Source of the DNA: Lachnospiraceae bacterium
GTDB lineage: Bacteria; Bacillota; Clostridia; Lachnospirales; Lachnospiraceae
DNA length: 32,161 nt
Assembly (NCBI GenBank): GCA_017428265.1
Contig: JAFRRD010000034.1
Location: forward strand, 1 to 32,161
Direction: 5' to 3'
Below the pieces are notes generated by a model, which worked only from the letters and a program-made list of their open reading frames with translations, was not told the DNA's origin and made no database searches. The position numbers and the translations under genes are program-made. Below, in pieces: positions 14,843-29,375 of this stretch; position 1 is the first letter of the stretch, and every line of letters begins with the position of its first letter.

Positions 14843-15454
14843 ATGAAAATCGACCTAAATGAACTGAAGTCTTACCCGAACATTATGAGTAAAGAACAGC
14901 TCTGTAAGGCCTGCCATATCAGCAAGCGCACCGCGCTCTTTTTGCTGGAGAACGGTTTGATCCCGCATATTGATACCGGCAAGAGGACGCGCTGTTATAT
15001 CATCCGCAAAGCCGACGTGATCGCTTTTGCCAGGAAGCAGAACTCGGAGTCATTCAGGAAAGAGCAGCCGCAACAGCCCGCAGCACCGGAACCGGTTCAG
15101 GAGGTCATCAGTTCTGTCCGAATTAAAACACAGATGCCGAAAGATTCGGAAGTTATCCGCAGATTTTACAAGAGTAAAATGTCCGCTTACCCTGACGTCA
15201 TGAGTACGGCACAGGTGACGGAGTTCACCGGTTATAACCGCCACACCGTCGGCAGGTGGATCAGTACCGGAAAACTGCGGCCGCTCAGAGTAGGACACAA
15301 GCATATGATCCCCAAGGTCTACTTGCTCGACTTTATGATGTCGGACGGTTTCAGTAAAATCGTCCGAAAGACAAGCGAGCACAAGATGCTGCTGTGGGAA
15401 CTGGTCAAGAAAAAGGGTGATAAATCCGGCCCGCAGAAAGGAGGCCGGGAATGA
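14843..15454 (+). CDS. DNA-binding protein with two excisionase-type HTH domains
   Basis: 203 residues. Two similar winged-HTH (MerR/excisionase-like) domains: residues 10-65 (YPNIMSKEQLCKACHISKRT...IIRKADVIAFARK) and residues 112-170 (YPDVMSTAQVTEFTGYNRHT...IPKVYLLDFM), joined by a Pro/Gln-rich linker. The parallel wording of the two halves suggests an internal duplication. A start at 14843 is supported by GAAGGAG. It lies next to attL and shares an ATGA overlap with the next gene. Likely a recombination directionality factor or element regulator. Confidence 0.75.
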   Translation: MKIDLNELKSYPNIMSKEQLCKACHISKRTALFLLENGLIPHIDTGKRTRCYIIRKADVIAFARKQNSESFRKEQPQQPAAPEPVQEVISSVRIKTQMPKDSEVIRRFYKSKMSAYPDVMSTAQVTEFTGYNRHTVGRWISTGKLRPLRVGHKHMIPKVYLLDFMMSDGFSKIVRKTSEHKMLLWELVKKKGDKSGPQKGGRE

Positions 15455-15741
15455 CCGTCAGACTGGATGCGTATGATCTAAGGGCGGTGATCAACGGTCT
15501 GTTTCAGACCAGGACTGCCTTGGGGAAAGAGCGGCAGGGCAAAATCGAAGCGCTCGTTCTGAGGCTTATTGATACCTGTGAACAGCTAAAACCTGGCCGG
15601 CGGGCTAAGATCCGCCTGGAACCCGGTGAAGCCAGACTGATCCTGCTGTGCCTGAACGAGTGGAGGAACCGGTTTATAGCGGCAGGAAAGGCGGCGGCTG
15701 CAAACGGGATCGGGGAAGTGATGGTAAGGTTTGACAGGTAG
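15451..15741 (+). CDS. Small element protein of unknown function
   Basis: 96 residues, predicted largely helical (LDAYDLRAVINGLFQTRTALG, ARLILLCLNEWRNRF). GGAGG lies upstream, and its ATG overlaps the previous stop by 4 nt, so it is translationally coupled to the two-HTH protein. No family was recognised. Confidence 0.65.
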   Translation: MTVRLDAYDLRAVINGLFQTRTALGKERQGKIEALVLRLIDTCEQLKPGRRAKIRLEPGEARLILLCLNEWRNRFIAAGKAAAANGIGEVMVRFDR

Positions 15742-15763
15742 AATAATGGGTAATTTCAACTCA

Positions 15764-15819
15764 CAACCCTTTAAAAAAGTACAAAACAGCTGCCCGCAAC
15801 CCTTTAAAAAAGTACAAAA
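15764..15819 (+). repeat. 23-bp direct repeat pair
   Basis: CAACCCTTTAAAAAAGTAC followed by AAAA occurs at 15764-15786 and 15797-15819, 33 bp apart, just after the small-protein gene and at the border of the cargo region. It could be a regulator site or the scar of an insertion. Confidence 0.8.
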
Positions 15820-15870
15820 GCAAGGTTGACACAGTGTAATGTTGCATCCTTGCACCCTTGAATCAAGAAT

Positions 15871-15892
15871 GGGGCCGCAGCAATGCGGCCCC
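15871..15892 (+). terminator. Terminator-like hairpin
   Basis: GGGGCCGCA (15871-15879) pairs with TGCGGCCCC (15884-15892) around a GCAA tetraloop; a pyrimidine-rich TCCTCTCGTTT follows. It separates the convergent small-protein and AAA-nuclease genes. Confidence 0.6.
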
Positions 15893-15989
15893 TCCTCTCG
15901 TTTCAAAACCTTATTGAGATTTAAACTAATTTCGGCAGTTATATAATTTAGCCGAATTTTGTTGAAGTATTTGCATCAGGAGGTCCATC

Positions 15990-17858
15990 TCAGATCTGCC
16001 CACTCTTTACTACCACCTGTTTCCCCGAGAATGCAATGCCGTATGTTACGATCTGACTGACTCCGCGTTCGGAAAGTTCTGTTGCATACTGTTTCTTCTC
16101 TATCTGTGAAAGTGCTTCCTCTGCCAAATTGGAGAGTGATGTATCACTGGCTTCCCGCGCAGCCTTAAACTCCATTAAAATACCGGGAAGCTTAAGATCT
16201 TTCGGCTCAAGCTGCAGATCAAATCGGCCGTCGCCGGCTTCTCTGTTTGATCGGATGAAATACCGTGAAGAAAGACTGGCAACCAATCCCAAAATCATAC
16301 CATGATAAAAACCTTCTGCTGCTCCGTCAAAACTGGAGATGCAGCTGATCATGTACTTCCTGAGAGCTTGCTGCAGACGGTCACCGTCGCTGCGGTAGAT
16401 CGCTTTTTCAATTTCCGGAATAACTGTTCCTGCCGGCTGCTGCCGAAGCCAGCCTAAGATTTCCGTGTTGTATACTCTGCGAACCTCCGTATTGGGAAGC
16501 TTCAGCTCCGCAAATGTCCCGAATTCCGTTTCCTTCGGAAGCCCCACCGTCGTCAGATACCCTGCCAGAAGCAGGAAACTGAAGATCGTATCCGCTCCGT
16601 CAGCAATTCGGGGATAAATCACTTCCATATCGAGAGCAGCATGGATCTCTTCACCCTGCATCACTGACTGAAGATTGTCTGCGATTTCCGGCGTCAGGCC
16701 GCGCATAAGTTCATGAATGATCTCATTGTCGCTGGTGTTTGCCCAATACGCCTTTGCCTGTCCGCCATTGGAAAAGTAATTCGTGACCGACCACGGATTA
16801 TAGACCGATGTGTTGCCAAACAGATATCCGTCATACCAAAGACGGACTTCCTCCATCCGGTCTGCTTTCCCGTAGTATGAGGCCATAGCCCGAACCTCTT
16901 CCTCAGTAAAGCCGAAAAACTGACTGTACTTTTCGTCCAAAACCGTGTTAACTGTCGGATTGTTCAAGCCACTGAAGAGGTTTTCTTTCGAGACTCGCAT
17001 GATTCCGGTAAGGACACCAAAAGCAAGATCAGGATTGTCTTTCAAGCCTCCGGACAGGAAATTCCGCATGAAAGAGATAACATCCTGATAAAAACCTTTG
17101 GCGTATCCCTGCTGAATCGGCGTATCGTATTCATCAATCAGGATCACCACTTTAGATTGATGATACGTTGCCAGAAGACGTACCAGGTTGAGAAGCGCCC
17201 GGCTGTATTCCACGTCACTTAAAAGGCCCTGCTCCATACGGCGGAGGTAATCCCGGTCATCCTGATCAAGAACATCATTCATGCCAAGTTCAGAATGCCT
17301 CTTGTATTCATCTTTCAGCAGAAGGCGGATTGCCTCCAGGCAGCTACCCCAGTCATCGTATTTCACATCCTTGAATGTGAGCATGATCACGGGATATGCC
17401 CCCTGGAACTGACGGTACTTTTCACCGCACTGCCATATCTTCTTGTCCCGGAAGAACTGGGCTGTATCCGAATCCGTTATTTCAAAGAACGTCTTCAGCA
17501 TATTTAATGCCAATGTCTTTCCAAAACGGCGGGGACGGGTAAACAGAGTGACCATGTTGCGGTCATCGATCAGCTCCTTGATCAGAAGTGTTTTGTCCAC
17601 ATAATAGCAGTCACCGGCAACTTCGACGAAAGAGGTATTTCCGACTGCAATCGGGAGCAGATTCCTTTCCTCTTCTGTGACTGGTGGCATATTTATTCCG
17701 GGTCGAAAAGCCAGTACGGAAGATTCCGGAATGTTCCAATTCCGTCCAACTTTAACCGCCCCTTTTAGTTTGCCTTCCTGACACAGTCCCGAGACTCTTC
17801 GGGATGTCATATGAAGTATTTTGGCTGCAGCAGCCGTGCTGATAAGCTTTTCTGCCAT
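15990..17858 (-). CDS. HTH + AAA-ATPase-like + PD-(D/E)XK nuclease protein
   Basis: 622 residues. Residues 1-52 form an excisionase-like HTH (STAAAAKILHMTSRRVSGLCQEG, then KVGRNWNIPESS). Residues 60-400 match the AAA-ATPase-like family common in gut bacteria: FVEVAGDCYYVDKT, phosphate loop TRPRRFGKTL, Walker B VVILIDEYDTP, VLTGIMRVSKEN. The C-terminal part ends in a nuclease core, GDGRFDLQL then ILMEFKAA (D...ExK). The family usually starts at the ATPase; the added HTH is notable. Six repeated 9-bp sites overlap its promoter, suggesting that the HTH regulates its own gene. Function is unproven; a defence or element-stability role is inferred. GGAGG lies 9 nt before the ATG. Confidence 0.85.
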   Translation of the reverse strand: MAEKLISTAAAAKILHMTSRRVSGLCQEGKLKGAVKVGRNWNIPESSVLAFRPGINMPPVTEEERNLLPIAVGNTSFVEVAGDCYYVDKTLLIKELIDDRNMVTLFTRPRRFGKTLALNMLKTFFEITDSDTAQFFRDKKIWQCGEKYRQFQGAYPVIMLTFKDVKYDDWGSCLEAIRLLLKDEYKRHSELGMNDVLDQDDRDYLRRMEQGLLSDVEYSRALLNLVRLLATYHQSKVVILIDEYDTPIQQGYAKGFYQDVISFMRNFLSGGLKDNPDLAFGVLTGIMRVSKENLFSGLNNPTVNTVLDEKYSQFFGFTEEEVRAMASYYGKADRMEEVRLWYDGYLFGNTSVYNPWSVTNYFSNGGQAKAYWANTSDNEIIHELMRGLTPEIADNLQSVMQGEEIHAALDMEVIYPRIADGADTIFSFLLLAGYLTTVGLPKETEFGTFAELKLPNTEVRRVYNTEILGWLRQQPAGTVIPEIEKAIYRSDGDRLQQALRKYMISCISSFDGAAEGFYHGMILGLVASLSSRYFIRSNREAGDGRFDLQLEPKDLKLPGILMEFKAAREASDTSLSNLAEEALSQIEKKQYATELSERGVSQIVTYGIAFSGKQVVVKSGQI

Positions 17859-17873
17859 TGTTCAATACCTCCG

Positions 17874-17975
17874 ATCGGAAATAATATACCATCTATCGGA
17901 AATCCCGTCAAGAATTTCCGATAGATTTCCGATAAAGCAAAAAATATTTCCGATGGCCGCTGTGTGATTTCCGAT
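17874..17975. repeat. Six phased copies of ATTTCCGAT at the AAA-nuclease promoter
   Basis: Exact 9-mers start at 17874 and 17895 (as ATCGGAAAT) and at 17914, 17925, 17946 and 17967 (as ATTTCCGAT). Spacings of 21, 19, 11, 21 and 21 bp keep them on about the same face of the helix. Copy 1 sits between the -10 box and the ribosome site, copy 2 between -35 and -10, and the rest lie upstream. Likely a cooperative operator array. Confidence 0.9.
17883..17911 (-). promoter_or_regulatory. Promoter of the HTH-AAA-nuclease gene
   Basis: On the minus strand TTGACG (17911-17906), a 17-bp spacer and TATATT (17888-17883). One repeat copy fills the spacer and another abuts the -10 box, so bound protein should block polymerase. 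Confidence 0.75.
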
Positions 17976-18084
17976 AGGAATGGGCCTTATAGTAAGAACA
18001 AGCCACTCTGTCTCCTCAGAAGCAGCGGTCAGGGAAGATTCTATCTAAAGGGACACTATATATTTTTGTAGTTTTGCTGCTTTA

Positions 18085-18972
18085 CTACTCTATCGAAGAT
18101 ATGACTTCTTTCAGTGTGCGAATATCATTTGGATCATTTATGATATGCATTTTTCTATGGCAGTTCGGACAGAGGGCTACACAGTTATTTACAGAATCCA
18201 TCCCGCCTTTTGAAAGCCAATTTATATGGTGACATTCCAGATATGGTTCCCCATACGGATCGTTAAACGGGGCTTTTTTGCCACATAATTGACAAAATCC
18301 TGCTGCTCTCTTTTTAACATACGCCGCAATAGTCGGATTTCGATGGTATACTGTTGTATTCACCGCACTGGCGGTAGCTCGTGTACTTTTCTTTTCTGCC
18401 GCCTTCTTTAAGCTACTTAATGATTTTGAAGATTCTTTATGAACTGCAAACAAAAAATCTTTTTCCAGATCTTTAGCGTCAGGCGGAGTCACATTCTGAA
18501 ACGTTCCAGGATTCTTTTGATTAACAAGCCACTTTAAGCGATCCCATTGCTCTGGTTTCAGATATGTAATCGAACCTCTTTTACTGATGGCAATAAAACT
18601 TTTAAATTCATCAATGTGAACAGGCCTTGAGAACATTTTTAGTTGATGAATGTCAGCCATCCACCAGCCGAGATCCTGCTCAGGCACAGAAGCGATTATA
18701 CCGTAGCCAAGAAGACATCCACTATACTGTTTATAAAGTGCCTTTTGTTGAGCAATGAACGCCTGAAAAGCAATTCCGTAATTAGCTGGAATGTGGGAAG
18801 TTGCCATACCAAGGTTATGTCTTGCCTCCTTCGCGCACATAAATACTATAACATCGCCTGGGCTGGCATTTTGGGGAACAGACCAGGCTACTTGTCCGTT
18901 TTCGAAGCCCTTCAGCAAGATATCGATATTAGTACCATCTCCCTTATCATAAAGGGTTTTGACCTCCGACAA
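18085..18972 (-). CDS. HNH endonuclease with PUA/EVE-like N-terminal domain
   Basis: 295 residues. The C-terminal HNH nuclease is clear (residues 225-285): CQLCGKK, LECHHINWLSKGG, NNCVALCPNCHRKMH, giving a four-Cys zinc knuckle around the HHI/N/H catalytic core. The N-terminal half (VAWSVPQNASPGDVIVFMCAK, YGIIASVPE, LKWLVNQ) resembles PUA/EVE-like modules that read modified bases in type IV restriction enzymes; this part is inferred. The start is uncertain: TTG at 18972 is the only usual initiation codon between the upstream in-frame stop and the conserved region, and it has no clear ribosome site. It lies beside the AAA-nuclease gene on the same strand, consistent with a small defence module. 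Confidence 0.75.
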   Translation of the reverse strand: MSEVKTLYDKGDGTNIDILLKGFENGQVAWSVPQNASPGDVIVFMCAKEARHNLGMATSHIPANYGIAFQAFIAQQKALYKQYSGCLLGYGIIASVPEQDLGWWMADIHQLKMFSRPVHIDEFKSFIAISKRGSITYLKPEQWDRLKWLVNQKNPGTFQNVTPPDAKDLEKDFLFAVHKESSKSLSSLKKAAEKKSTRATASAVNTTVYHRNPTIAAYVKKRAAGFCQLCGKKAPFNDPYGEPYLECHHINWLSKGGMDSVNNCVALCPNCHRKMHIINDPNDIRTLKEVISSIE

Positions 18973-19055
18973 TTCGCAAGAATTATTGAAATTAACAATG
19001 ACAATCCCGGCTTTTTATCATGCGCAAATTGCCGTCCTGATTTTACGTATCTCAC

Positions 19056-19083
19056 TTGCAGAATTTCCAAAGCAGAGTATAAT
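19056..19083 (+). promoter_or_regulatory. Promoter of the creatininase-C69 operon
   Basis: TTGCAG (19056-19061), a 16-bp spacer and TATAAT (19078-19083). Its position rules out the in-frame ATG at 19085 as the start and supports 19115. Confidence 0.7.
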
Positions 19084-19114
19084 AATGGCTGAGTTTAGAC
19101 TGGAGGTGGATAAA

Positions 19115-19900
19115 ATGTTTCTTGAAAAAATGAATTATCTGGACGTCGAAAAATATCTGAAAACCCGCGATACGGTTGTAATCCCGGTTGGCAGCATCGA
19201 AAACCATGGAAAGCACATGCCCCTCGGCACGGATACGATGATACCACATCGCATTGCAGAGCTGTATTCAGCCATGTCCGACACAGTGATCGCGCCAACT
19301 GTGAACTATGGTGCGACAGCGGATATCGTCGGCTTCCCCGGAACGATTTCGCTGGGCGTGGAGGGACTTCGCGCCCTGCTGGAGCGCATTTGCGATCAGC
19401 TCTATGATTATGGTTTCCGTCATTTTATTATTCTGAACGGTCACGGTGGAAACAGCAAATCCATCACGGAGGTTGGCCATCATCTGTATGCAAAGGGCGC
19501 GATTCTTGCTAACCTGAACTGGTGGTTGATTGCCGGAGAGCTTCGTCCGGAATGGAAGGGCGGCCATGGCGGCGGCGAAGAGACCGCTGCAGTGATGGGT
19601 ATTGACCCGGCATTGATCCATACGGAATACCTTGAAGAGGGCGAAGGCATCCGCAACGACGTTTCCAACGAACTCCCCAGCGCCAGCTGGATGGACGTCA
19701 ACTTCAAGGGGGGTAGCGTTACGATTCCCAGGCCGATTCGCTCCATTACGGACAATGGCTGGCTGACGCATGGCATGTCTATCGATCCGCCAACGAAGGC
19801 AACGCAGGCATGGGGCGTGGAAATGCTCAATACGATGGCAGAATACATGCGCGATTTTACCGTTGCGTTTGATAAGGTTGCGCTTTCAAAGATCAAATGA
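19115..19900 (+). CDS. Creatininase-family amidohydrolase
   Basis: 261 residues from the ATG at 19115, with GGAGGTGGA just upstream. Metal-site motifs of the creatinine amidohydrolase/MftE family are present: PVGSIENHGKHMPLGTD, NGHGGNS and KGGHGGGEETA. These enzymes use two metals to open cyclic amides or hydrolyse short amide bonds. The exact substrate cannot be told. It lies 11 bp before the C69 dipeptidase gene, in one operon, so a joint role in breaking down a small peptide or cyclic amide is plausible. The cargo differs in style from the flanking chromosomal genes. Confidence 0.85.
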   Translation: MFLEKMNYLDVEKYLKTRDTVVIPVGSIENHGKHMPLGTDTMIPHRIAELYSAMSDTVIAPTVNYGATADIVGFPGTISLGVEGLRALLERICDQLYDYGFRHFIILNGHGGNSKSITEVGHHLYAKGAILANLNWWLIAGELRPEWKGGHGGGEETAAVMGIDPALIHTEYLEEGEGIRNDVSNELPSASWMDVNFKGGSVTIPRPIRSITDNGWLTHGMSIDPPTKATQAWGVEMLNTMAEYMRDFTVAFDKVALSKIK

Positions 19901-19911
19901 GGAGATTCGCA

Positions 19912-21624
19912 ATGCTTCAGGATAAAATGATGAACTGTATGACTGTGATTGTGGGCAAAGCTGTGTCCGCAAGCGGGCGCGTGCTCGTCGCACACAACGA
20001 GGATGATCCGGGTCATGTGATTGTCCGGCACGCAATCGTGCCCGCAGCGGATCATGCGTCGGGCGAACTGATACCGGCAGAGAAAGGGCTGGCACGCATT
20101 CCGCAGGTTCCGCATACGCTCGGCTATTACTGGGTGGAATATGTCGAGGATGAGGGCGGCGTTACCGCTGCGGATGCTTATCTGAACGAGTGTGGCGTTG
20201 TTATCACATCAAATTCGATGGGTTGGTCCAAGGAAGACGATGACGACCCGAACGTCGTTAAGGACGGCGGGATTGGCTATGTGCTGCGCCGTGCGCTGGC
20301 GGAACGCGCACATACGGCGCGCGAGGGTGCGCATGTGCTGATGGCGCTGATTGACGAATGGGGCTACGCTCCTTCCGGCCGCGCCTATACCATTGCCGAT
20401 AAGAATGAGGCGTTCATGTTCCAGCTTGTCCGCGGGCGGCATTATGTCGGTGCGCGCGTACCGGATGATGCGGTGGTCGTCATGCCCAATCATTATACCT
20501 TCCATACGCTCAGCGATTGCCCGGAAATGTTCTATTCGAAGGATATTGTGCGCTATGCCGTCGAAAAGGGCTGGTATGTGCCCAAAACGACGGATTATTC
20601 CGACTTTGATTTTGCCGAGGCGTATCAGGGTGAAAAGACCTGGAGGCATGCGGGGAATTTGCTGCGCCAGAAGCATGGGCAGCGCATTGTGCTCGGTCGA
20701 GATTGGGATATTGAAAGGGAAGGCACGCCATTCTGCGTGTATCCGCATAAGCCGATAGATATCGAAACGCTTGCCCGGGTGATGAGTTGTCACTACGAGG
20801 GCACGCAGGATGACGTTGACCGCTTTGGTCCAGGACGTTCACCGCACAATTCTCCGACCGCGCGCCGCATTTGCACTGGAACGACGCTGGAAAGCGATCT
20901 TTGGGAATTTGCGGATGAACCGTGGCAGACCTGCGTATACACGGCGTTTGGCCGCCCGTGCCAGGTACCGTATCTGCCGATACATCCGTTGATGGGGCTG
21001 CCCGAGAGCATAAAGGCCGATGGGAGCGGCGCGGAGCTGATGGCGCATCATCTTGAGCGTCAGCCCGGCGCGACCTGTGCAAACGACAGCACCTTTGATC
21101 GCTTCCGCAGGCTGTGCGGCGCGGAAGAAATGCTGCACAGCGATGTGTTTGACGGCGTGCAGCCGCTGCTGCGCGAAATTTTCGCCGAGGCGCGCAGGGA
21201 GAGCGTCGAGGCGCTGAAGCTGAAGGATGCGGCGGTGCGGGACGAAGCCTTCTTGCAGGCGGCGCTTGCGAAGCTGGAAGCGTATGCGAAACGGAAATTC
21301 AATATGGTTGAAGTCGTAAGCGCTTCAGAAATGCGTCTGAGCACTGAAGCGGCGGCGATTTCGGTGGAATTTGCGATGGAGGGAATTCCACAGGAAGATA
21401 CGCTGCGCTTTGGTGTGGAGTTTACGCATGTTATCGATGCGTTTGCACCGGCATGCGGCGGCTCGTTGCGCCGCGAGGGCAAAAACCACTGGGTTGCGGA
21501 ATTTGAATTCGAGCCGATGAAGAAGGTTTTGCCCTGTCCAGGTCGCCACACATTCTTTCTTGGCGGCAGGCTTGAAGGCGGCCCCGCTTTTGCAGGACGC
21601 ATCGTCGCCGAGGTGAAGGCATAA
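19912..21624 (+). CDS. C69-family dipeptidase
   Basis: 570 residues from the ATG at 19912, with AGGAG 7 nt upstream. The N-terminus MMNCMTVIVGKAVSASG then VLVAHNEDD is the N-terminal-nucleophile start of peptidase family C69 (PepD-like); Cys9 would become the catalytic N-terminus after removal of a short propeptide. SNSMGWSKED and the GPGRSPHNSPTARRI segment are family-like, and the length is slightly above the usual 470-550. There is no signal peptide, so it is probably cytoplasmic. Cotranscribed with the creatininase gene. Confidence 0.85.
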   Translation: MLQDKMMNCMTVIVGKAVSASGRVLVAHNEDDPGHVIVRHAIVPAADHASGELIPAEKGLARIPQVPHTLGYYWVEYVEDEGGVTAADAYLNECGVVITSNSMGWSKEDDDDPNVVKDGGIGYVLRRALAERAHTAREGAHVLMALIDEWGYAPSGRAYTIADKNEAFMFQLVRGRHYVGARVPDDAVVVMPNHYTFHTLSDCPEMFYSKDIVRYAVEKGWYVPKTTDYSDFDFAEAYQGEKTWRHAGNLLRQKHGQRIVLGRDWDIEREGTPFCVYPHKPIDIETLARVMSCHYEGTQDDVDRFGPGRSPHNSPTARRICTGTTLESDLWEFADEPWQTCVYTAFGRPCQVPYLPIHPLMGLPESIKADGSGAELMAHHLERQPGATCANDSTFDRFRRLCGAEEMLHSDVFDGVQPLLREIFAEARRESVEALKLKDAAVRDEAFLQAALAKLEAYAKRKFNMVEVVSASEMRLSTEAAAISVEFAMEGIPQEDTLRFGVEFTHVIDAFAPACGGSLRREGKNHWVAEFEFEPMKKVLPCPGRHTFFLGGRLEGGPAFAGRIVAEVKA

Positions 21625-21674
21625 CGCGAATTTGGACGCAACCTTTGTTGCAATGCCTGGTACATAGGTGGGGC

Positions 21675-21701
21675 ACTTTCAGGGAGAGAAGTACTGAAAG
21701 T
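21675..21701 (+). other. Hairpin after the dipeptidase gene
   Basis: ACTTTCAG (21675-21682) and CTGAAAGT (21694-21701) form a perfect 8-bp stem; no T-tract follows. A smaller GCAAC/GTTGC hairpin lies 20 bp upstream. Possibly a weak terminator or a transposon-end remnant. Confidence 0.4.
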
Positions 21702-21709
21702 TCAGCAGT

Positions 21710-22215
<506 letters not shown>

Positions 22216-22385
22216 TTATTACAGCACTATAGTCGGAAGAAGCGGTAGAAACTCGCCAAAACTGATTCTCAACTGTAATAGGGCTTAATTTCGCCCCGAA
22301 ATGGTACCATTTCCAGGCAAATCAAGTCCTTTTTTTGTTTGCTAAAGAGGCAAATTAAAAATCGAACAAATTTTCGATTTTTCTC

Positions 22386-22413
22386 TTGCATTTCTCTTCA
22401 GAGTGTGTATAAT
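22386..22413 (+). promoter_or_regulatory. Promoter of the leader RNA / helicase-mobilization operon
   Basis: TTGCAT (22386-22391), a 16-bp spacer and TATAAT (22408-22413); read as CTTGCA the spacer is 17 bp. It is the only good promoter seen upstream of the helicase gene, 1 kb away. Confidence 0.7.
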
Positions 22414-22419
22414 AGGTTT

Positions 22420-22590
22420 CGGGACGAGTTCCCGACACTACAACCGAATACTGCAATCGACTTTTAATCGAGCGAGCGGAGCAGGATCCGAAAGGACTGA
22501 AAAACTACCAAGCACCGTAGAAGTCGAATGACAGAACGTGGCAGAGCAAACCTGCCGACTCTTCATTCGATCTCTACGGTGCTTTTTTTA
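22420..22590 (+). ncRNA. Terminated structured RNA, about 170 nt
   Basis: From the expected start near 22420 to a strong terminator there is no plausible gene. Visible helices are TCGGGA/TCCCGA near the 5' end, TCGA/TCGA around a short loop, GCGGA/TCCG, and the three-tier terminator stem. No known family was recognised. It could be an attenuated leader or a small control RNA for the downstream replication gene. Confidence 0.6.
22511..22589 (+). terminator. Long three-tier terminator in the leader
   Basis: AGCACCGTAGA (22511-22521) pairs with TCTACGGTGCT (22573-22583), TCGAATGA (22524-22531) with TCATTCGA (22563-22570), and GGCAG with CTGCC inside, followed by TTTTTTT. Readthrough of this terminator must be controlled for the operon to be expressed from the upstream promoter. 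Confidence 0.9.
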
Positions 22591-22609
22591 TCGGGGTATT
22601 CGGTACGTT

Positions 22610-22630
22610 GAGCTCTTTGACAACTGAACA
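22610..22630 (+). promoter_or_regulatory. boxA-like motif 1
   Basis: GAGCTCTTTGACAACTGAA just after the long terminator resembles the boxA antitermination element (TGCTCTTTRACA). The related CACCTTGACAACTGAATA occurs in both downstream repeat modules at 22790 and 23251. Confidence 0.45.
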
Positions 22631-22709
22631 GCCATGATGCTCAAACATCTTTTGCCTAGGAGGAGGTGACTTAAGAAAAGAAAGATTTTGAAAAAAACCG
22701 CCGGAAGCG

Positions 22710-22911
22710 CATATTTTGCCTCTTCCCATGCTCCAGCACTTGAGGGGACAAAACAGAAGCCACGGTTCCTCTCAGCACCTTGACAACTGAATAACTGGCT
22801 GCAGCCGAAGATACGACATCGCCATGACGCGGTTTTACCGCCGAGCAATGCAACGCCGGAGAGATCCTCGGGCAGGGAACCAAGCTGCAGGCAGTGCAAA
22901 AAGAATCTAAT
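22710..22911 (+). repeat. Structured RNA-like module, copy A
   Basis: About 200 nt, repeated imperfectly at 23183-23378, 461 bp downstream. Conserved blocks include GCACTTG...GGGGACAAA, CACCTTGACAACTGAATA, GCAGCCGAAGATACGACAT, GACGCGG...CCGCCGAGC and GAGCTGCAGGCAG-like sequence. Loops vary while stems keep pairing (GCGG/CCGC with different loops), as expected of a conserved RNA rather than a protein. Confidence 0.75.
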
Positions 22912-22989
22912 TTTTAGGCCATGGCTCAGAGTTCATACGGGTACGTACGGGTATTATTTTCTGAAACCCGCAACAGACCGTCAATTTTT

Positions 22990-23010
22990 GGCCTTTTTCG
23001 AGGCCTATTT
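22990..23010 (+). terminator. Weak terminator-like hairpin between the modules
   Basis: GGCCT (22990-22994) and AGGCC (23001-23005), followed by TATTTT. Short, moderate strength. Confidence 0.4.
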
Positions 23011-23025
23011 TATGGAGGGGTATCT

Positions 23026-23040
23026 ATGATGGTCACTTAA
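23026..23040 (+). other. Minimal ORF (MMVT) with a strong ribosome site
   Basis: GGAGGGG, 5 nt, then ATG ATG GTC ACT TAA. The same CACTTAAGAAAA-type ending occurs at about 22670 after AGGAGG. It may be a leader or minigene rather than a protein gene. Confidence 0.35.
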
Positions 23041-23087
23041 GAAAAAAAGTTTTTTCAAAAATCCTGATTTCTCTTTACTTTTGGGGC

Positions 23088-23119
23088 CTTCTCACTGGCT
23101 ACCAGTTGAGAGGACTTTT
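23088..23119 (+). terminator. Terminator-like hairpin before module B
   Basis: TCTCACTGG (23090-23098) pairs with CCAGTTGAGA (23102-23111) with one bulged T, extended by CC/GG, then GGACTTTT. It is placed before module B much as the long terminator is placed before module A. Confidence 0.5.
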
Positions 23120-23149
23120 CATGAGCCGATGAAGAAAGGAGGATGAGCC

Positions 23150-23164
23150 ATGAAAAAAACTTAG
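23150..23164 (+). other. Minimal ORF (MKKT) with a strong ribosome site
   Basis: AAAGGAGG (23135-23142), 7 nt, then ATG AAA AAA ACT TAG. The ribosome site is ideal for a four-codon frame. It ends in ACTTAGAAAA, like the other leader minigene. Confidence 0.4.
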
Positions 23165-23182
23165 AAAAATCTGGGGGAACAT

Positions 23183-23378
23183 GCATAATTTGGCCTTTCT
23201 CGTGCTCTAGCACTTGGGGGGACAAATGCAGAGCTGCCCCTCTCGGCACCTTGACAACTGAATAGCTGGATGCAGCCGAAGATACGACATTGCCAGGACG
23301 CGGATGGCGGACCGCCGAGCGATGCGACGCCGGGGTGAGACTCCCGGGCAGGGAACGGAGCTGCAGGCAGCGCAAAAC
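23183..23378 (+). repeat. Structured RNA-like module, copy B
   Basis: Second copy of the 22710-22911 module. The loop between GCGG and CCGC differs from copy A, the CCGGG/CCCGG helix replaces the bulged CCGAG/CTCGG helix of copy A, and GTGC-TCTA-GCAC replaces TGC-TCCA-GCA. These paired changes support RNA structure. It ends 47 nt before the helicase start codon. Confidence 0.75.
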
Positions 23379-23424
23379 AAGAAAGGAGGAAACTACAAAA
23401 TGAAAACACAGAAGGAGAAACACA

Positions 23425-24621
23425 ATGCCATTCACAGAACTTGAAACAATGGACGCCAGTGACGTCTACTACGACACTACCCCGGAGCCGCCTGCGCTGA
23501 TCAGCGGGATCCTGCCATGCGGACTGACGACGCTCGCCGGGGATTCCAAAATCGGAAAAAGCTGGCTCATCCTCTGGCTTTGCCTGCAGATTGCCAAAGG
23601 AGAACCAATCTGGGGCATTCCGGTTGAGAAACGCACCGTCATCTATCTGGCTCTGGAGGATAGCCGATGGCGTCTCAAAAAACGGATGCACCTGCTGACT
23701 GAGGATCCGCCGGACAATCTGGTCATAAGTTTCAGCTGCGGCATGATCGGACAGGAACTGGAGGATCAGATCCGGGCTGAACTGAAGAAGTATCCGAACA
23801 CGGCGATCATCTTCATCGATACCCTGCAGATGATCCGTGACAATGCCGCCGGAGGCGGCAATGCCTACGCAAAAGACTACAAAGATCTGACGTCTCTGAA
23901 AAAGCTGGCGGACGAAAAACAAATCGGGATCTTTTTGGTTCATCACACAAGAAAAGGACCTGCTAGTGACAATCCGTTCGATGATATGAGTGGAACGAAA
24001 GCGCTGCAAGGCGCAGCCGACACGAACTGGAGTCTTCGGAAGGACACCCGCTTCGGGAACATGGCAACCCTGAGCATTACCGGCCGGGATGTAGAGGAAA
24101 AGCAGCTGCGGCTGAAGAAAAACGGTGTCGTCTGGGAGTGCGAAGAGACGCTGGACAGTGTAGGCATCTGGAGAAGCCGGATCCCGGAATGGATCTTCAA
24201 AGTTCCGGAACTGGTTCTTGACCGGGGACACTTTATCGGTACGATCTCAGAACTGCTCGAAAAGCTGGAAATAACGGATCTGAAGCCCAATGTGGCCAGC
24301 AAAGAACTGGCTGAATTTGCCAATGACGTCCTGGCTCCGCTGGATATGGAAATCATAAGCCACCGGTATTCCTATGCGCGAAAATACATGATCCGGATCA
24401 AAAACGGCTATGACGCACATGACGAAAATGACGCAAAAAAGCGCAGGGAAAAGCTCGCGGCAATGCGCGGGGACACCGTCAGTTCTGCTTCGGAAACAGC
24501 AGAGAATGATAGCGACGCTCTGCTGTCTGAAACAGCGTCATCGCCGTCATTACCGTCACTGGCAGAGGATAAAGGATTCAAGGAGATCGGGCTTGATGAT
24601 GACATTCCATTTGACATCTGA
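23425..24621 (+). CDS. RepA-type RecA-fold helicase
   Basis: 398 residues. RecA-like ATPase of the RepA/AAA_25 family: Walker A AGDSKIGKSW (about residue 40), VIYLALEDS, Walker B AIIFIDTLQ (about 130), VHHTRKG, and SGTKALQGAADTNW. Such proteins are hexameric replicative helicases or loaders of plasmids and mobilizable elements. The C-terminal 60 residues are acidic and Ser-rich. It is first in the mobilization operon, behind the long structured leader, with AAGGAG before the ATG. No separate primase or Rep initiator was recognised nearby. Confidence 0.85.
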   Translation: MPFTELETMDASDVYYDTTPEPPALISGILPCGLTTLAGDSKIGKSWLILWLCLQIAKGEPIWGIPVEKRTVIYLALEDSRWRLKKRMHLLTEDPPDNLVISFSCGMIGQELEDQIRAELKKYPNTAIIFIDTLQMIRDNAAGGGNAYAKDYKDLTSLKKLADEKQIGIFLVHHTRKGPASDNPFDDMSGTKALQGAADTNWSLRKDTRFGNMATLSITGRDVEEKQLRLKKNGVVWECEETLDSVGIWRSRIPEWIFKVPELVLDRGHFIGTISELLEKLEITDLKPNVASKELAEFANDVLAPLDMEIISHRYSYARKYMIRIKNGYDAHDENDAKKRREKLAAMRGDTVSSASETAENDSDALLSETASSPSLPSLAEDKGFKEIGLDDDIPFDI

Positions 24622-24659
24622 GACCGTGGCTACACACCGCCTACAAATCCGTAAGGATA

Positions 24660-24760
24660 GCGAACATGGGGTTTGTAAAGCCATCCGGCTTCCAAACCAC
24701 CCCGTCCTTTAGGACGCAAGGGGACATCCCCCTGGTACCCCGTCCGCGCAAGCGGGCATC
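24660..24760 (+). other. Candidate origin of transfer (oriT)
   Basis: A non-coding stretch just before mobC with several inverted repeats: GGGGTTTG (24668-24675) with CAAACCACCCC (24693-24703) plus an inner GCC/GGC helix; CGTCCT-TT-AGGACG (24703-24716); GGGGA-CA-TCCCC (24720-24731); CCGC-GCAA-GCGG. This placing and structure are typical of oriT upstream of mobC/mobA. The nick site cannot be assigned by eye. Confidence 0.5.
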
Positions 24761-24794
24761 AACCATACCACCTCAAAAAGAAAGGAGAAAAGGA

Positions 24795-25148
24795 ATGACA
24801 ATGAGGAAACGTAACCAAGAGATCAATGTTCGGGTCTATCCAACCGAGAAGTTGCTTCTCGCCAGGAAGGCCAAAAGATGCGGCATGAACCTGTCCGAGT
24901 ATCTGCGGACGGTCGGCAAAGGTGTGACGGTGCATGAAGCACCGAAAGAAGAACTGAAGGAGGCATACCTGATCGTAACCAAGATCCGGGATTTTTATGA
25001 AGGCGATCCGGACCCGTACTCGGCCAGGCTTTGCCAGGCAATGAACCGCGTCAGCGATCTGCTGATGACGGTCTACTACGGAAAGGAGGAAAACGATGGC
25101 AGTAACGAAGATCTGGGCGATCCACGACAGTCTGAGCCGTGTGACTGA
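24795..25148 (+). CDS. mobC: MobC-like relaxosome accessory protein
   Basis: 117 residues from the ATG at 24795, which has GAAAGGAG upstream. The N-terminal ribbon-helix-helix (INVRVYPTEKLLLARKAKRCG, MNLSEYLRTVG) is typical of MobC/relaxosome proteins that bind oriT. Its 3' end overlaps the relaxase start by 53 nt in another frame, so the two are coupled. Confidence 0.75.
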   Translation: MTMRKRNQEINVRVYPTEKLLLARKAKRCGMNLSEYLRTVGKGVTVHEAPKEELKEAYLIVTKIRDFYEGDPDPYSARLCQAMNRVSDLLMTVYYGKEENDGSNEDLGDPRQSEPCD

Positions 25149-26532
25149 CTACTGCAGCAATCCGGAAAAGACCCGGATGACCGATCTGGAGCAGGTCCTG
25201 ATGTATGCGAGCGATGCCGAGAAAACGAGGGAGGTCGGCGAGGAATCCTTCGCGGTGACAGGCATCAACTGCAAGGCGGAAACGGCGGCGCAGGAAATGG
25301 CTGCCGTGCAGCAGCGTTTCGGAAAAGAAGGCGGGAACGTCGCCTATCACGCTTACCAGTCCTTCAAGCCCGGCGAGGTCACGGCAGAACGCTGCCACCG
25401 GATCGGCGTGGAACTGGCCCGCCGCTTATGGGGCAACGAGTATCAGGTGCTGGTGGCGACCCATTTCAACACCGGGACCTATCACAACCACTTCGTGATT
25501 AACGCAGTGAACATGTGGACCGGGAGAAAGCTGGAGGCAAAGTTCGGCGTCTACTACCGGATGCGGGAGGCTTCGGATCAGATTTGCCGGGAATGCGGTC
25601 TGTCCGTTGTGGAGGATCCGCAGCCGCACAAGACGCCGCGCGCCATCTACTTTGCCGAGAAAAATGGTGAGCCGACGAACTGGAACCTGATGAGGGAAGT
25701 TCTGGACGAAGGTCTGTCCATTGCCAGCAACTACAGCGAGCTGCGGCAGATCCTGAAAAAGAAGGGCTACTTTCTGGATTACGACCCGAGGCACAAGTAT
25801 GTGACCATCCGATCCCTGAATGCCAAAAAGCCCGTCCGTACCCACCGTTTAGGCGACGAATACACAAAGGAAGCGATGGCGGAGCGTATGGAGCAGAACG
25901 AGGACGTCCCGGAAGCGCGGAGGGCATTCTACGCGCTCACAGAGCACAATGCATACTGGTATCGTCGGGAGCATGAGCCGAAGCCGGAGTATTTCCGCTT
26001 CCGAGCTTTCTACCGGGAAGCGCTTCGGGCTACTACTATCGAACTGGTGTTCCGCTGTCTGGCCATCATCCTCGGTTTTGCACCGATCGAGAAGGAAGTA
26101 TACCGCAAACCGCTCTCTCCCGAGTGCCGCGAAGCCTGCCGCAGGCTGGACCGCTACACGGCAGAAATTACGCTGAGCAGTCAGGAAAAGTTCCAGGATC
26201 GGGCAGATGTGGAACGCTTTATCAGCACCACTGAAACCGAGATCTCCGAGCTGACGCAGGCACGCGAGAAGGTCCGCAATCAGCAGAAAAGCTGCAAGGA
26301 TCCGACGCATATGACGGAGCTGAGGATCCAGTGTACTCATCTGACGCAGGGGCTGGTGCAGCTGCGGAAACGCAGAAAAACCGCCAAGTGGATTTTGGAG
26401 GACTATGCCAAAGCCCGCGAGCTGATCGGGTGCGAGTACAGGAGCCGGGTACTGAATGATCCGTATCTGACGGACAAAGAAAAACAGACCCTGCGAGGCG
26501 AGGCAGTTCCGCAAAAAGACTATGAACGATGA
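25096..26532 (+). CDS. mobA: MobA/VirD2-type relaxase
   Basis: 478 residues. The N-terminal relaxase domain carries MAVTKIW, the candidate nicking Tyr in VTDYCSNPEKT, and the metal motif THFNTGTYHNHFVIN (H...HxH). The C-terminal half is charged and helical (coiled-coil-like around ISTTETEISELTQAREKVRNQ). It should nick oriT and lead the transferred strand. GAAAGGAGG lies upstream. Without T4SS genes in the element, it implies mobilization by a helper. Confidence 0.88.
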   Translation: MAVTKIWAIHDSLSRVTDYCSNPEKTRMTDLEQVLMYASDAEKTREVGEESFAVTGINCKAETAAQEMAAVQQRFGKEGGNVAYHAYQSFKPGEVTAERCHRIGVELARRLWGNEYQVLVATHFNTGTYHNHFVINAVNMWTGRKLEAKFGVYYRMREASDQICRECGLSVVEDPQPHKTPRAIYFAEKNGEPTNWNLMREVLDEGLSIASNYSELRQILKKKGYFLDYDPRHKYVTIRSLNAKKPVRTHRLGDEYTKEAMAERMEQNEDVPEARRAFYALTEHNAYWYRREHEPKPEYFRFRAFYREALRATTIELVFRCLAIILGFAPIEKEVYRKPLSPECREACRRLDRYTAEITLSSQEKFQDRADVERFISTTETEISELTQAREKVRNQQKSCKDPTHMTELRIQCTHLTQGLVQLRKRRKTAKWILEDYAKARELIGCEYRSRVLNDPYLTDKEKQTLRGEAVPQKDYER

Positions 26533-26543
26533 AAGGAGCAACA

Positions 26544-27485
26544 ATGAAAGAAAGAACCAAGATCGATCTGGGATTCACCGCGTACGACGAAATGTTCATG
26601 ACGGACGCGGAGCGGGCTCAGATCCGGAAACCTGTCGTGGAGGAGATCCCGATCAAAGATCTGCATCCGTTTCGGAATCACCCGTTTCTGGTCAAGGCGG
26701 ACGAAGAAATGGAACGCTTAAAGCAGAGCATCGCCCAGTCTGGCGTTCTGGTGCCGGCGCTGGCCAGAAAACGAAAAGAAGGCGGCTATGAGCTGATCAG
26801 CGGGCATCGCCGCATGGCTGCCTGCAGGGAACTCGGACTGAAAACCCTGCCGGTCATCATCCAGGATCTGACGGATGAAGAAGCTATCGTCACGATGGTG
26901 GACGCCAATCTGCAGCGGGAACACATCCTGCCTTCGGAGAAAGCCTTTGCCTACAAGATGAAGATGGATGCGTTAAGTCATCAGGGTGCAAGGACAGATC
27001 TGTCTTCGTCGCATGTTGCGACAAAGTCAGACACCGCAGCCGAAATCGGGCGGGCAAGCGGTGACAGCCGCGATCAGGTCTACCGCTACATCCGGCTGAC
27101 GAATCTGATCCCGGAATTGCTGAAACTGGTCGATGAAAACAAGATTGCTCTTACTCCGGCCGTCGAGCTTTCCTACTTAACATCGGACGAGCAGCGGGCA
27201 CTGCTTGAAATGATAGAGTATGAAGGCGCGACTCCCTCGCTGTCTCAGGCTCAGCGTCTCCACCGCATGAGTCAGGAAGCGCGGGTAAGCGAAGAAGACA
27301 TCCTCGCTGTACTGACTGAAGTTAAGAGCAATCAAAAGGAAATGATACGGGTGCCGGTTGATGATGTACGGAAGTTTTTCCGTCCGGACACCTCCATTAA
27401 ACAGATGTCCGAAACGATTGTCAAGGCTGTGGAGTTTTACACCCGGCATCTGGAGCGCAAGCGGGCTGACCGCGATGAACGGTAA
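26544..27485 (+). CDS. ParB/Spo0J-family partition protein
   Basis: 313 residues from the ATG at 26544, with AAAGGAG 6 nt upstream; an ATG at 26529 overlapping the relaxase stop would add five residues. The ParB N-terminal domain is clear (IPIKDLHPFRNHPF, GVLVPALARK, YELISGHRRMAACRELG, VDANLQRE), then the HTH part (SGDSRDQVYRYIRLTNL). No ParA was found in the window, so it may act as a lone regulator or stabiliser of the element. No canonical parS was seen. Confidence 0.85.
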   Translation: MKERTKIDLGFTAYDEMFMTDAERAQIRKPVVEEIPIKDLHPFRNHPFLVKADEEMERLKQSIAQSGVLVPALARKRKEGGYELISGHRRMAACRELGLKTLPVIIQDLTDEEAIVTMVDANLQREHILPSEKAFAYKMKMDALSHQGARTDLSSSHVATKSDTAAEIGRASGDSRDQVYRYIRLTNLIPELLKLVDENKIALTPAVELSYLTSDEQRALLEMIEYEGATPSLSQAQRLHRMSQEARVSEEDILAVLTEVKSNQKEMIRVPVDDVRKFFRPDTSIKQMSETIVKAVEFYTRHLERKRADRDER

Positions 27486-27504
27486 GGAAGGAGGGAAAAA
27501 CGAG

Positions 27505-27735
27505 ATGACAAAAGCAGAACTCGCGGAACTGTACAAAGTGATGTTCCCGGATTACCCGGACATCGTAACGGTCCCGCAGATCCAGTCCATGCTGGGCATC
27601 AGCCGCCATGCGGTCTACGACCTGATCACGGACGGCTGGATCCCGGCGCTGAAGATCGGGAACGCCTACCGCGTCCCGAAAATCAACGTGATCAACTACA
27701 CGCTTGCTCCACGTAACACGAAGAAGCAGGCATAA
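27505..27735 (+). CDS. xis: Excisionase-like HTH protein
   Basis: 76 residues from the ATG at 27505, with GGAGGG upstream. An excisionase-type winged HTH: VTVPQIQSMLGISRHAVYDLITDGWIPALKIGNAYRVPKINVINYT (given here as a region, residues 21-66). Its place directly before the integrase fits a recombination directionality factor. Confidence 0.8.
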   Translation: MTKAELAELYKVMFPDYPDIVTVPQIQSMLGISRHAVYDLITDGWIPALKIGNAYRVPKINVINYTLAPRNTKKQA

Positions 27736-27773
27736 AGGCAACTAAAGGTTCGATTCGAACCCCTGTGGCACAC

Positions 27774-27802
27774 TGGACAGAGATTTTCCGGATGGCTATA
27801 CT
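27774..27802 (+). promoter_or_regulatory. Promoter of the integrase gene
   Basis: TGGACA (27774-27779), a 17-bp spacer and TATACT (27797-27802). The near-palindrome GGTTCGATTCGAACC at about 27748 lies just upstream and could be a regulator site. It allows int to be expressed apart from the mobilization operon. Confidence 0.7.
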
Positions 27803-27861
27803 TTTGTACAGTCCGAAGGAGGTGTCTGTCCGGTGCTGTCACCCGGAAAGGAGGAAAAGAA

Positions 27862-29070
27862 ATGACAGCAGGACACCTGCAAATCAAAAATGGATACTAT
27901 TATGCCGTGCTGACCTATACCACCGCAGACGGCAAAAGAAAACAGCCGTGGATACCGCTTGACATCCCGGCCACCGGCAAAAAAACAAGTAAGAAAATGG
28001 CAGAGGCAGCGCTTACCAAGGCACGGATGGAATTCCGTCCGCCGTCCAAAGACGCTGCCGGCGGAATGGAACCGGATATGCTGTTTTCGGATTTCATGGA
28101 AGCTTGGCTGGAAGTCATCAAGAGCACGGTGGAGCAAACGACGTTTACCTCCTACGTGCAGATGGTACGGGGAAAGATCATCCCGTATTTCCGCAAGACG
28201 GGAATCACCCTGGAGCGGCTTCAGGCAAGGCACATCCAGAACTTCTATCTGCATGAGCTGAAAACGGTCTCGGCCAACACCGTGATCCATGAACACGCCA
28301 ATATCCACCGTGCGCTGGAGTATGCGATGAAGATGGAACTGATTCCCGGAAATCCCGCCGACAGAGTGGAGCGGCCTAAGAAAGAACGTTATGTGGCGGA
28401 TTACTACAAGACGGAGGAACTGGAACAGCTTTTCGAGGCGACCAAGAACCATCCGCTTTCCCTGCTGATCCAGATGGCCGCTTTCTACGGCCTGCGGCGC
28501 AGCGAGGTGCTTGGACTCAAGTGGGATGCAATCGACTTCGAACGGAACACGATCGTCATCCGGCATACGATCACGGAAGCGAAGGAAGGCGGGAAGCGGA
28601 TCCTGATAGCGAAAGACAGCGCCAAGACCAAATCGTCGCTACGCTCATTGCCTCTGGTGGCCGTATTTAAGTCAAAACTGCTTGAGCGGAAAGAGCAGCA
28701 GAAGGTGAACATGAAGGTCTGCGGCAACAGCTACAACAAGGAATACAAGGGCTATGTCTTTGTGGATCCGATGGGGAATCTGTTCACGCCGCAGATGGTC
28801 ACGGAAAACTTCTCGTCCATCCTGAAGCAGAACGGGCTGCGGCACATCCGCTTCCACGATCTTCGGCACAGCTGCGCTTCGCTGCTGCTGGCCAATGAGG
28901 TCCCGATGAAGCAGATCCAGGAATGGCTCGGTCACAGCGACATCAGTACCACGGCGAACATCTACAGTCACCTGGATTACAAGTCCAAGATCGCGTCGGC
29001 AAACGTGATGGATAATGCTCTGGCGATGCCGGAAACGGTCGAAAAGGAGTGGGTGATTCGGGAAGGATGA
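27862..29070 (+). CDS. int: Tyrosine integrase
   Basis: 402 residues. Order: an N-terminal AP2-like arm-binding domain (YYYAVLTYTTADGKRKQPW), a core-binding SAM-like domain (FSDFMEAWLEVIKSTVEQTTF), then the catalytic domain with Arg in FYGLRRSEVLGL, Lys in SAKTKSSLRSLP, HDLRHSCAS, WLGHSD and Tyr in TANIYSHLDY. All five key residues are present, so it should be active. AAAGGAGG lies upstream. It is the last gene before the right end and tRNA-Ser, the usual place for an integrase that uses a tRNA site. Confidence 0.93.
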   Translation: MTAGHLQIKNGYYYAVLTYTTADGKRKQPWIPLDIPATGKKTSKKMAEAALTKARMEFRPPSKDAAGGMEPDMLFSDFMEAWLEVIKSTVEQTTFTSYVQMVRGKIIPYFRKTGITLERLQARHIQNFYLHELKTVSANTVIHEHANIHRALEYAMKMELIPGNPADRVERPKKERYVADYYKTEELEQLFEATKNHPLSLLIQMAAFYGLRRSEVLGLKWDAIDFERNTIVIRHTITEAKEGGKRILIAKDSAKTKSSLRSLPLVAVFKSKLLERKEQQKVNMKVCGNSYNKEYKGYVFVDPMGNLFTPQMVTENFSSILKQNGLRHIRFHDLRHSCASLLLANEVPMKQIQEWLGHSDISTTANIYSHLDYKSKIASANVMDNALAMPETVEKEWVIREG

Positions 29071-29239: not shown

Positions 29240-29289
29240 AAAAAAGTAGGCAAAACGTCGAAAACCGTTGTCCTGCCTACATATTTGAG

Positions 29290-29375
29290 CGCAGCGGGAG
29301 GGATTCGAACCCCCGTGCGGTTGCCCGCAAACTGATTTCGAGTCAGCCCCGTTATGACCACTTCGATACCGCTGC
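29290..29375 (-). tRNA. tRNA-Ser (CGA), intact
   Basis: 86 nt without CCA. The acceptor GCAGCGG pairs with CCGCTGC, the discriminator base is G, the anticodon loop CTCGAAA gives CGA (reads UCG), and the long variable arm (GCGGGCAACCGC) is typical of Ser. It lies inside the element, between int and the right-hand core. Its 3' 54 nt equal attL and its 5' 43 nt equal the fragment at 29551-29593. Confidence 0.93.

Follow-up and report, generated by a model that had tools for sequence, protein, structure and literature searches.

What reads the six identical nine-base sites that lie over the promoter of a predicted ATPase-nuclease gene in this Lachnospiraceae contig, and to what effect? The window, by which we mean the whole stretch of 32,161 nucleotides that was analysed, contains six exact copies of ATTTCCGAT between 17874 and 17975. 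They start at 17874 (-), 17895 (-), 17914 (+), 17925 (+), 17946 (+) and 17967 (+), in start-to-start steps of 21, 19, 11, 21 and 21 bp with two copies inverted, just as the initial annotation had described them. As the gene lies on the minus strand, it is the promoter-proximal pair that counts as 'inverted', and the remaining four copies are found upstream in the opposite orientation. Read along the gene strand, the order is four sites, TTGACG, a 17-base spacer (GGATTTCCGATAGATGG, 17905-17889) holding the fifth site, TATATT, the sixth site, GGAGG and ATG. The previously proposed promoter, TTGACG-17-TATATT with one copy in its spacer and another abutting the -10 box, is thus seen on the gene strand as well; it is a consensus match with a predicted start. 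The features referred to throughout are as follows.

17967 to 17975, plus strand: putative operator copy 1, the outermost, ATTTCCGAT (sequence match)
17946 to 17954, plus strand: putative operator copy 2 (sequence match)
17925 to 17933, plus strand: putative operator copy 3 (sequence match)
17914 to 17922, plus strand: putative operator copy 4, directly upstream of the -35 box (sequence match)
17906 to 17911, minus strand: predicted -35 box, TTGACG (from sequence)
17895 to 17903, minus strand: putative operator copy 5, within the 17-bp promoter spacer (from sequence; the spacer site recurs in homologues)
17883 to 17888, minus strand: predicted -10 box, TATATT (from sequence)
17874 to 17882, minus strand: putative operator copy 6, adjoining the -10 box, where transcription is expected to start (from sequence)
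17868 to 17872, minus strand: ribosome-binding site, GGAGG (from sequence)
17858, minus strand: start codon ATG of the window gene (from sequence)
15990 to 17858, minus strand: gene for a 622-residue protein with HTH, AAA-ATPase_like and PDDEXK_9 parts (open reading frame and domain matches)
17706 to 17843, minus strand: HTH_17-like domain, residues 6-51, the proposed reader of the array (24.7 bits, below cut-off; family model and relatives)
16974 to 17642, minus strand: AAA-ATPase_like domain PF09820, residues 73-295 (144.1 bits, cut-off 26.1)
16005 to 16319, minus strand: PDDEXK_9 nuclease domain PF08011, residues 514-618 (69.5 bits, cut-off 25.5)

No exact copy of ATTTCCGAT occurs elsewhere in the window. 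When the window was shuffled 200 times with dinucleotides preserved, no 9-mer exceeded three copies per 110 bp (the maximum was two copies in 198 shuffles and three in 2), compared with the six real ones. Across the full window, 15 matches with up to one mismatch were counted against 11.0 expected, which is no over-representation. What is unusual about ATTTCCGAT here is its clustering, not its overall number. An RNA element was also considered and was rejected, as Rfam gave no match at gathering threshold between 15000 and 19000.

The product of the window gene is the sole PF09820 match in its own genome, which is 95% complete. Residues D547, E563 and K565 of the PDDEXK_9 domain are invariant in 16 of 16 aligned proteins, their catalytic role being assigned by analogy, and the RPRRFGK variant of Walker A (R108-K114) and the DEYD Walker B (D242-D245) are invariant in the alignment too. 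Motifs of both types are described for the DUF1703 family in the accessible text of PMC1913061. The HTH that the initial annotation had placed at the start of the product is a weak match to HTH_17 (PF12728) in the window protein itself, at 24.7 bits against a cut-off of 27; among relatives, L037 passes at 33.0 bits and L042 lies under at 17.1. The HTH of a further relative, L041, matches HTH_59 instead, again under the cut-off (21.2 bits, 27). An HTH model made from 60 loci matches 66 of 68 HTH-bearing loci, most of which were its training set and do not form an independent control. Solved structures gave weak matches only (best ClpX, E 0.085), and a search with six exact peptide patterns, which reach close relatives only, returned no viral relatives. 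No PADLOC family and no NCBIfam model matched the window protein, and a defence label was rejected on those grounds. According to the accessible part of a review, PF09820 is among the domains of RADAR RdrA, PARIS1 and Old-tin (PMC10952713).

As to its surroundings, an HNH endonuclease gene (18085-18972) lies upstream on the same strand; among PADLOC models it matches one for a type IV restriction enzyme best (E 1.1e-23), and only over residues 205-281. The region 14843-29070 resembles a mobilisable integrative element near a tRNA-Ser (29289-29375), with genes for a tyrosine integrase (27862-29070), a relaxase (weak, under cut-offs) and NikA-like, ParB-like and AAA_25 proteins, and a recombinase fragment lies at 21710-22096. 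At the start of the window, 42-3725 encodes a large protein built of near-identical repeats; it closes with IPDTGD, a hydrophobic stretch and KKKRK, and is by reading probably a surface protein.

We consider it probable that the array is a self-operator read by the HTH that the gene encodes. In this mechanism the N-terminal MerR/excisionase-like HTH of the ATPase-nuclease would bind ATTTCCGAT, and RNA polymerase would be kept off by the copy within the promoter spacer and by that at the start point. The upstream copies, phased on the same DNA face, would increase occupancy cooperatively, the contact being made probably by the AAA body at two-turn spacing and by neighbouring HTHs at one turn, and the ATPase-nuclease would keep its own level low.

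Of 299 family genomes, 118 contain a relative at E<=1e-30, whether HTH-bearing or not. These relatives were supplemented by 34 loci from named genomes, and three further genome sets of 392, 391 and 397 genomes, partly overlapping, were searched. The nearest relative (L036, 95% identical) comes from a Lachnospiraceae MAG from water-buffalo rumen. The array and open reading frame are common to the window (15980-17990) and L036, and likewise to L006 and L130, in genomes whose surroundings otherwise differ.

The initial annotation had called for a search for arrays at homologues with and without the HTH, and had named HTH-bearing homologues lacking an array as evidence against self-repression. For each promoter, the spacer motif was sought nearby and the outcome compared with 100 shuffles of the flanks (floor p 0.01). 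Recurrence of the spacer motif at p<=0.05 was seen for 25 of 63 HTH-bearing homologues, a set that still includes L064 (without HTH by the model), versus 1 of 59 HTH-less ones, and the floor was reached in 17/63 and 0/59, respectively. These sets are 63 of 68 HTH-bearing loci, with L031, L076 and L009, L140 and L145 (whose promoters repeat others) left out, and 59 of 60 HTH-less loci, one identical promoter having been dropped. Outside the window's clade, 15 of 52 HTH-bearing loci showed recurrence at p<=0.05. The mean predicted promoter score is lower for HTH-less loci (9.83) than for HTH-bearing ones (11.14); among promoters scoring at least 10, recurrence was found in 23 of 55 versus 0 of 28. 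On the other side, 38 of the 63 HTH-bearing promoters individually missed p<=0.05, and in one subclade (L033, L034, L042, L079 and L080) an array was looked for and none was seen (p 1.0, 1.0, 1.0, 0.149 and 1.0). HTH-bearing homologues lacking a detectable array do exist, then, and this part of the result runs against the earlier expectation; yet at least one exact recurrence is present in 42/63 of them versus 22/59 of the HTH-less loci. In a later-fetched set (12 of 13 loci; L210, with only 60 upstream bases, was dropped), 2 of 12 reached p<=0.05 and 9 of 12 had at least one recurrence. An earlier, motif-blind repeat count (at most 3 of 60 shuffles) had marked 20 of 47 HTH-bearing versus 4 of 60 HTH-less loci; it was less sharp and was replaced by the spacer test. 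Automatic rules had assigned its 47 HTH-bearing and 61 HTH-less loci, one of the latter being too short, with loci of broken, distant or unplaced starts omitted, and two HTH-less loci, L067 and L106, also stood out in it.

Loss or absence of the HTH can also be viewed against the tree of protein bodies. Among 80 bodies, the HTH-less ones within or beside the HTH-bearing clade are L170-L172, L173 (at a contig edge), L146, L031 and L174. The first three are loci met above under other handles (L082, L083 and L084 appear in the tree as L172, L170 and L171), and although their bodies fall within the HTH-bearing clade, no significant recurrence was found at L082, L083 or L084 (p 1.0, 1.0 and 0.198, respectively). 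A separate HTH gene beside the HTH-less homologues was considered and rejected, as none was found in 65 loci with the model that matches 66/68 HTH-bearing loci. At L031, in genome G150, the model finds no HTH, and two ATTTCCGAAAT-like sites lie upstream; the other copy in that genome, L073, carries CTTCCGAA sites.

The sites differ between lineages, which allowed us to ask whether their sequence follows the HTH. The spacer motif of the window's clade is ATTTCCGA. Other lineages have TTCCGAA, TTTCGCTCGAA, TTGCGAAA, TTGCCGCAA, ATTTCGC or TTCCCA at a similar spacer position. The covariation rows numbered 60, then 53 after redundancy removal, with L015, L031, L064, L076 and duplicates out and five spacers placed by hand. 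In a Mantel test on the 53 non-redundant loci, spacer distance correlated with HTH distance at r=0.312 and with body distance at 0.271 (0/2000 permutations each). With the body held fixed the partial r for the HTH was 0.198 (1/2000 permutations as high), and with the HTH held fixed that for the body was 0.118 (68/2000); the far spacer bases 13-17 gave 0.07 against HTH distance (67/2000). Without the window's clade the partial values were 0.188 for the HTH (21/2000) and 0.168 for the body (32/2000), and because these are close the Mantel test is not decisive alone. The HTH and the promoter are adjacent DNA, and shared descent accounts for part of the covariation. The best residue-base pair joins residue 21, in the recognition helix, with spacer base 5. 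Across 469 pairs at 50-85% HTH identity, sequence identity is highest at the promoter boxes, for which the method selects; within the spacer it peaks at bases 4, 6 and 10 and is about 0.3 at bases 13-17. In the 12 later-fetched loci, taking the spacer from the locus whose HTH is nearest gave the right base at 105 of 144 positions, versus 66.3 ± 6.7 for random loci and 75.0 ± 5.5 for permuted neighbours, with 0/20000 as high in both.

One locus, L041, separates the two parts of the protein. In the tree its body falls among relatives of the window protein (closest L038, 79%). Its HTH differs from that of the window and is nearest to those of L070 and L025, at 53%. Its array consists of AACAGCCG in place of ATTTCCGA, with five sites at no more than one mismatch, including one in the spacer. 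L041 is, as judged from these alignments, a natural swap in which a window-like AAA body is combined with another HTH and another array. Since the sequence of the array tracks the HTH of the encoded protein, the window gene very probably controls itself.

Close relatives indicate that the sites are kept while the DNA between them changes. In four close-relative pairs, 13 of 173 bases had changed within sites versus 73 of 267 between sites, a class that still contains the promoter boxes and the ribosome site (Fisher 1.4e-7). Pair by pair, the counts were 0/42 versus 17/73, 4/44 versus 24/84, 2/38 versus 18/56 and 7/49 versus 14/54, the last pair (L038/L039) being weak alone. Spacing was counted over 42 loci, with motif cores picked after viewing the promoters, loci without a clear motif absent and close relatives included, which makes the counts non-independent: 45 of 62 same-facing neighbours lie 20-22 bp apart and 16 of 62 lie 10-12 bp apart. 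Within the 60-bp limit the individual spacings were 21 bp (36 cases), 20 (5), 22 (4), 10 (8), 11 (4), 12 (4) and 14 (1), while 13 of 45 opposite-facing pairs fell at 18-20 bp and 19 at 30-32 bp. The later-fetched set gave seven same-facing spacings, of 11, 21, 21, 22, 22, 26 and 35 bp. Two turns seem too wide for direct HTH contacts of the BldC kind, and we therefore infer the AAA body as the bridge.

The cooperative self-repression that had been suggested for this gene is supported in part. That the encoded HTH binds the array has good support from the covariation, the L041 swap and the comparison with HTH-less homologues. Repression and cooperativity are likely, the former because it fits the positions of the sites and the latter from their helical spacing. 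Release upon engagement of the ATPase/nuclease part, which the initial annotation added to this scheme, is conjectural.

The same sites could serve movement of the gene more than its expression. The array would then be the cis end of a mobile unit, bound by the HTH-AAA-nuclease in order to move the gene, with promoter control secondary. Nine close pairs of loci were compared, eight of them inspected base by base. In 7 of 9 the main shared block runs from within or just past the array (-64 to -204) to at most 13 bp from the stop codon, taking in the open reading frame together with all or most of the array. Sharing limited to this unit holds at 97-99% identity, for L035 (on a Butyrivibrio plasmid) with L143 and for L023 with L133. 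The array and open reading frame thus seem, from these alignments, to travel as a unit, and certain genomes contain many first-look candidates for the protein (59 each in G029 and G051; 4 scored). Against a role for the array in that movement, inspection of the eight pairs by eye revealed neither terminal repeats, inverted ones included, nor a target duplication, nor a further array on the 3' side. Two pairs share DNA past the unit, L010/L012 for 190 bp past the stop codon and in further pieces, and L007/L009 upstream to -632. Beyond the main block, some pairs share short pieces of 48-213 bp, located further upstream or at different offsets. The positions of the sites are, moreover, fixed relative to the promoter. 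We regard this account as unlikely.

An HTH that binds its own promoter might equally activate it. Upstream sites would recruit polymerase and the promoter sites would set a ceiling, as in a feed-forward switch of the C-protein type. Four of the six sites do lie upstream of the -35 box in one orientation, and RdfS, an HTH_17 relative, is an activator at some promoters, as the accessible text of PMC11963761 has it. Blocking, however, is what one expects of a site within a 17-bp spacer and of another over the start point, and classical MerR activators have spacers of 19-20 bp (PMC5859096, in the part available). Self-activation is in our view quite unlikely.

If another, trans-acting host regulator read the sites and controlled the window gene among others, the sites should also be found elsewhere. 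The pattern ATTTCCGA-N11-15-ATTTCCGA occurs at 22 places in 20 of the 299 family genomes. Those matches that form a promoter array all lie at homologues, with six sites in the window's own genome, G245 and G298 and three in G140 and G246. The own genome has no second ATTTCCGA site pair, and matches away from homologues lie, by eye, mostly in coding sequence, except at L148, L150 and L165. By reading of the open reading frames, the pair at L165:1501-1529 precedes a MATE-like transporter gene beside a TetR-like gene, that at L150:1501-1528 lies at the start of an HTH-like frame, and L148:1501-1548 is a degenerate 20-bp tandem repeat with the motif between two sporulation-type genes. A trans-regulator with a regulon was rejected on the missing second pair and on the mostly coding matches. 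The non-coding or possibly non-coding sites at these three loci would speak for such a regulator, as would another protein with two HTH_17 stretches encoded by the mobile element in the window (14843-15454). The motif varies among homologues and tracks the encoded HTH, however, and the restriction of significant spacer recurrence to 1 of 59 HTH-less homologues is also contrary to it; a trans-acting reader is very unlikely. That the array is a chance or recently expanded functionless tandem repeat has next to no probability, for while the degenerate repeat at L148 and the short repeats often found near promoters might be cited in its favour, it is already contradicted by sites that invert at the promoter, are helically phased and are kept across divergent relatives while their linkers change.

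We return to self-control by the encoded HTH and to what it may imply for the family. Two or three HTH-bearing copies coexist in each of five genomes (G423, G234, G100, G293 and G169; nine pairs), their spacers matching at 2 to 7 of 12 bases versus a mean of 4.98 over all locus pairs. Co-resident copies differ, and this difference alone does not show insulation. The gene that follows the L036 copy (L036:2340-3521) is of the Fic family (PF02661), with a C-terminal tail that looks winged-helix-like by eye and has no model match. The promoter of this Fic gene is laid out in the same way, its sites being TCGTCCA and the spacer containing one. Among Fic loci, the spacer motif recurred at p<=0.05 in 14 of 29 usable (of 31), with several different motifs. 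As a tentative extension, one possibility among others, array and gene might form a self-insulated mobile module of one gene, whose HTH and operator co-diversify so that copies coexist like incompatibility groups. The AAA body would couple HTHs two turns apart and the array would sense whether the ATPase-nuclease is oligomeric or engaged, while the Fic genes would have arrived at the same layout by convergence. Together with the Fic promoters of similar build, the unit-like transfer hints at a broader class of single-gene modules that regulate themselves. The relatives are widespread, at 118/299 family genomes, while the role of the family is left open in the accessible accounts (PMC1913061, PMC6387759). 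A readable operator would show when the gene is silent, would give a direct assay for the state of the ATPase-nuclease that releases it, and would supply natural HTH-operator pairs of many specificities.

How does this arrangement compare with known systems? The DUF1703 family (PF09820 with PF08011) has the same AAA-ATPase and PD-(D/E)XK parts as the window protein; an N-terminal HTH and gene regulation are absent from the parts of its description available to us (PMC1913061, PMC6387759), and a search of the open-access PMC literature found no description of regulation in this family. The individual parts are of known kinds, and their combination, a fused ATPase-nuclease with a phased self-operator and co-diversifying specificity, was not found described in that literature. 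The following likenesses are drawn from the accessible portions of the papers cited. BldC of Streptomyces, a MerR-like winged HTH, binds 9-bp direct repeats, AT-rich plus C-G, head to tail and one turn apart (PMC5859096). The window system resembles it in HTH type, in such sites as direct repeats, in variable copy number, in sites lying over promoters, in cooperativity (inferred for the window) and in helical-turn phasing, with 61/62 same-facing neighbours in the 42 loci at 10-12 or 20-22 bp. BldC is, however, a lone HTH of 68 residues that controls a regulon, whereas the window HTH is fused to an ATPase-nuclease and arrays of its type were found only at the own gene. BldC oligomerises by HTH contacts at one-turn spacing. 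Contiguous one-turn repeats are not the main spacing of the window family, which mostly uses two turns (45/62), and its sites, unlike those of BldC, also invert at the promoter. Members of the HTH_17 group, which the window HTH resembles, include RdfS and phage Xis; these oligomerise on DNA, and RdfS negatively autoregulates its promoter as proposed here. The main role of these proteins is excision of an integrative element, unlike our proposal, and the RdfS account, as far as available, found no consensus motif and mentions no enzyme domain, both of which the window system has (PMC11963761). A similar regulatory logic is that of M.EcoRII, M.SsoII and Ecl18kI, enzymes that repress transcription of their own genes by means of an N-terminal HTH and an operator over the promoter; C proteins in turn form incompatibility groups based on their operators (PMC3874152). 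Enzymes of the M.EcoRII type are methyltransferases, whereas in the window the nuclease polypeptide itself bears the HTH, facing up to six phased sites. As in those self-repressing HTH-fused enzymes, the putative operator of the window gene overlaps its own predicted promoter, through its spacer site and its start-point site.
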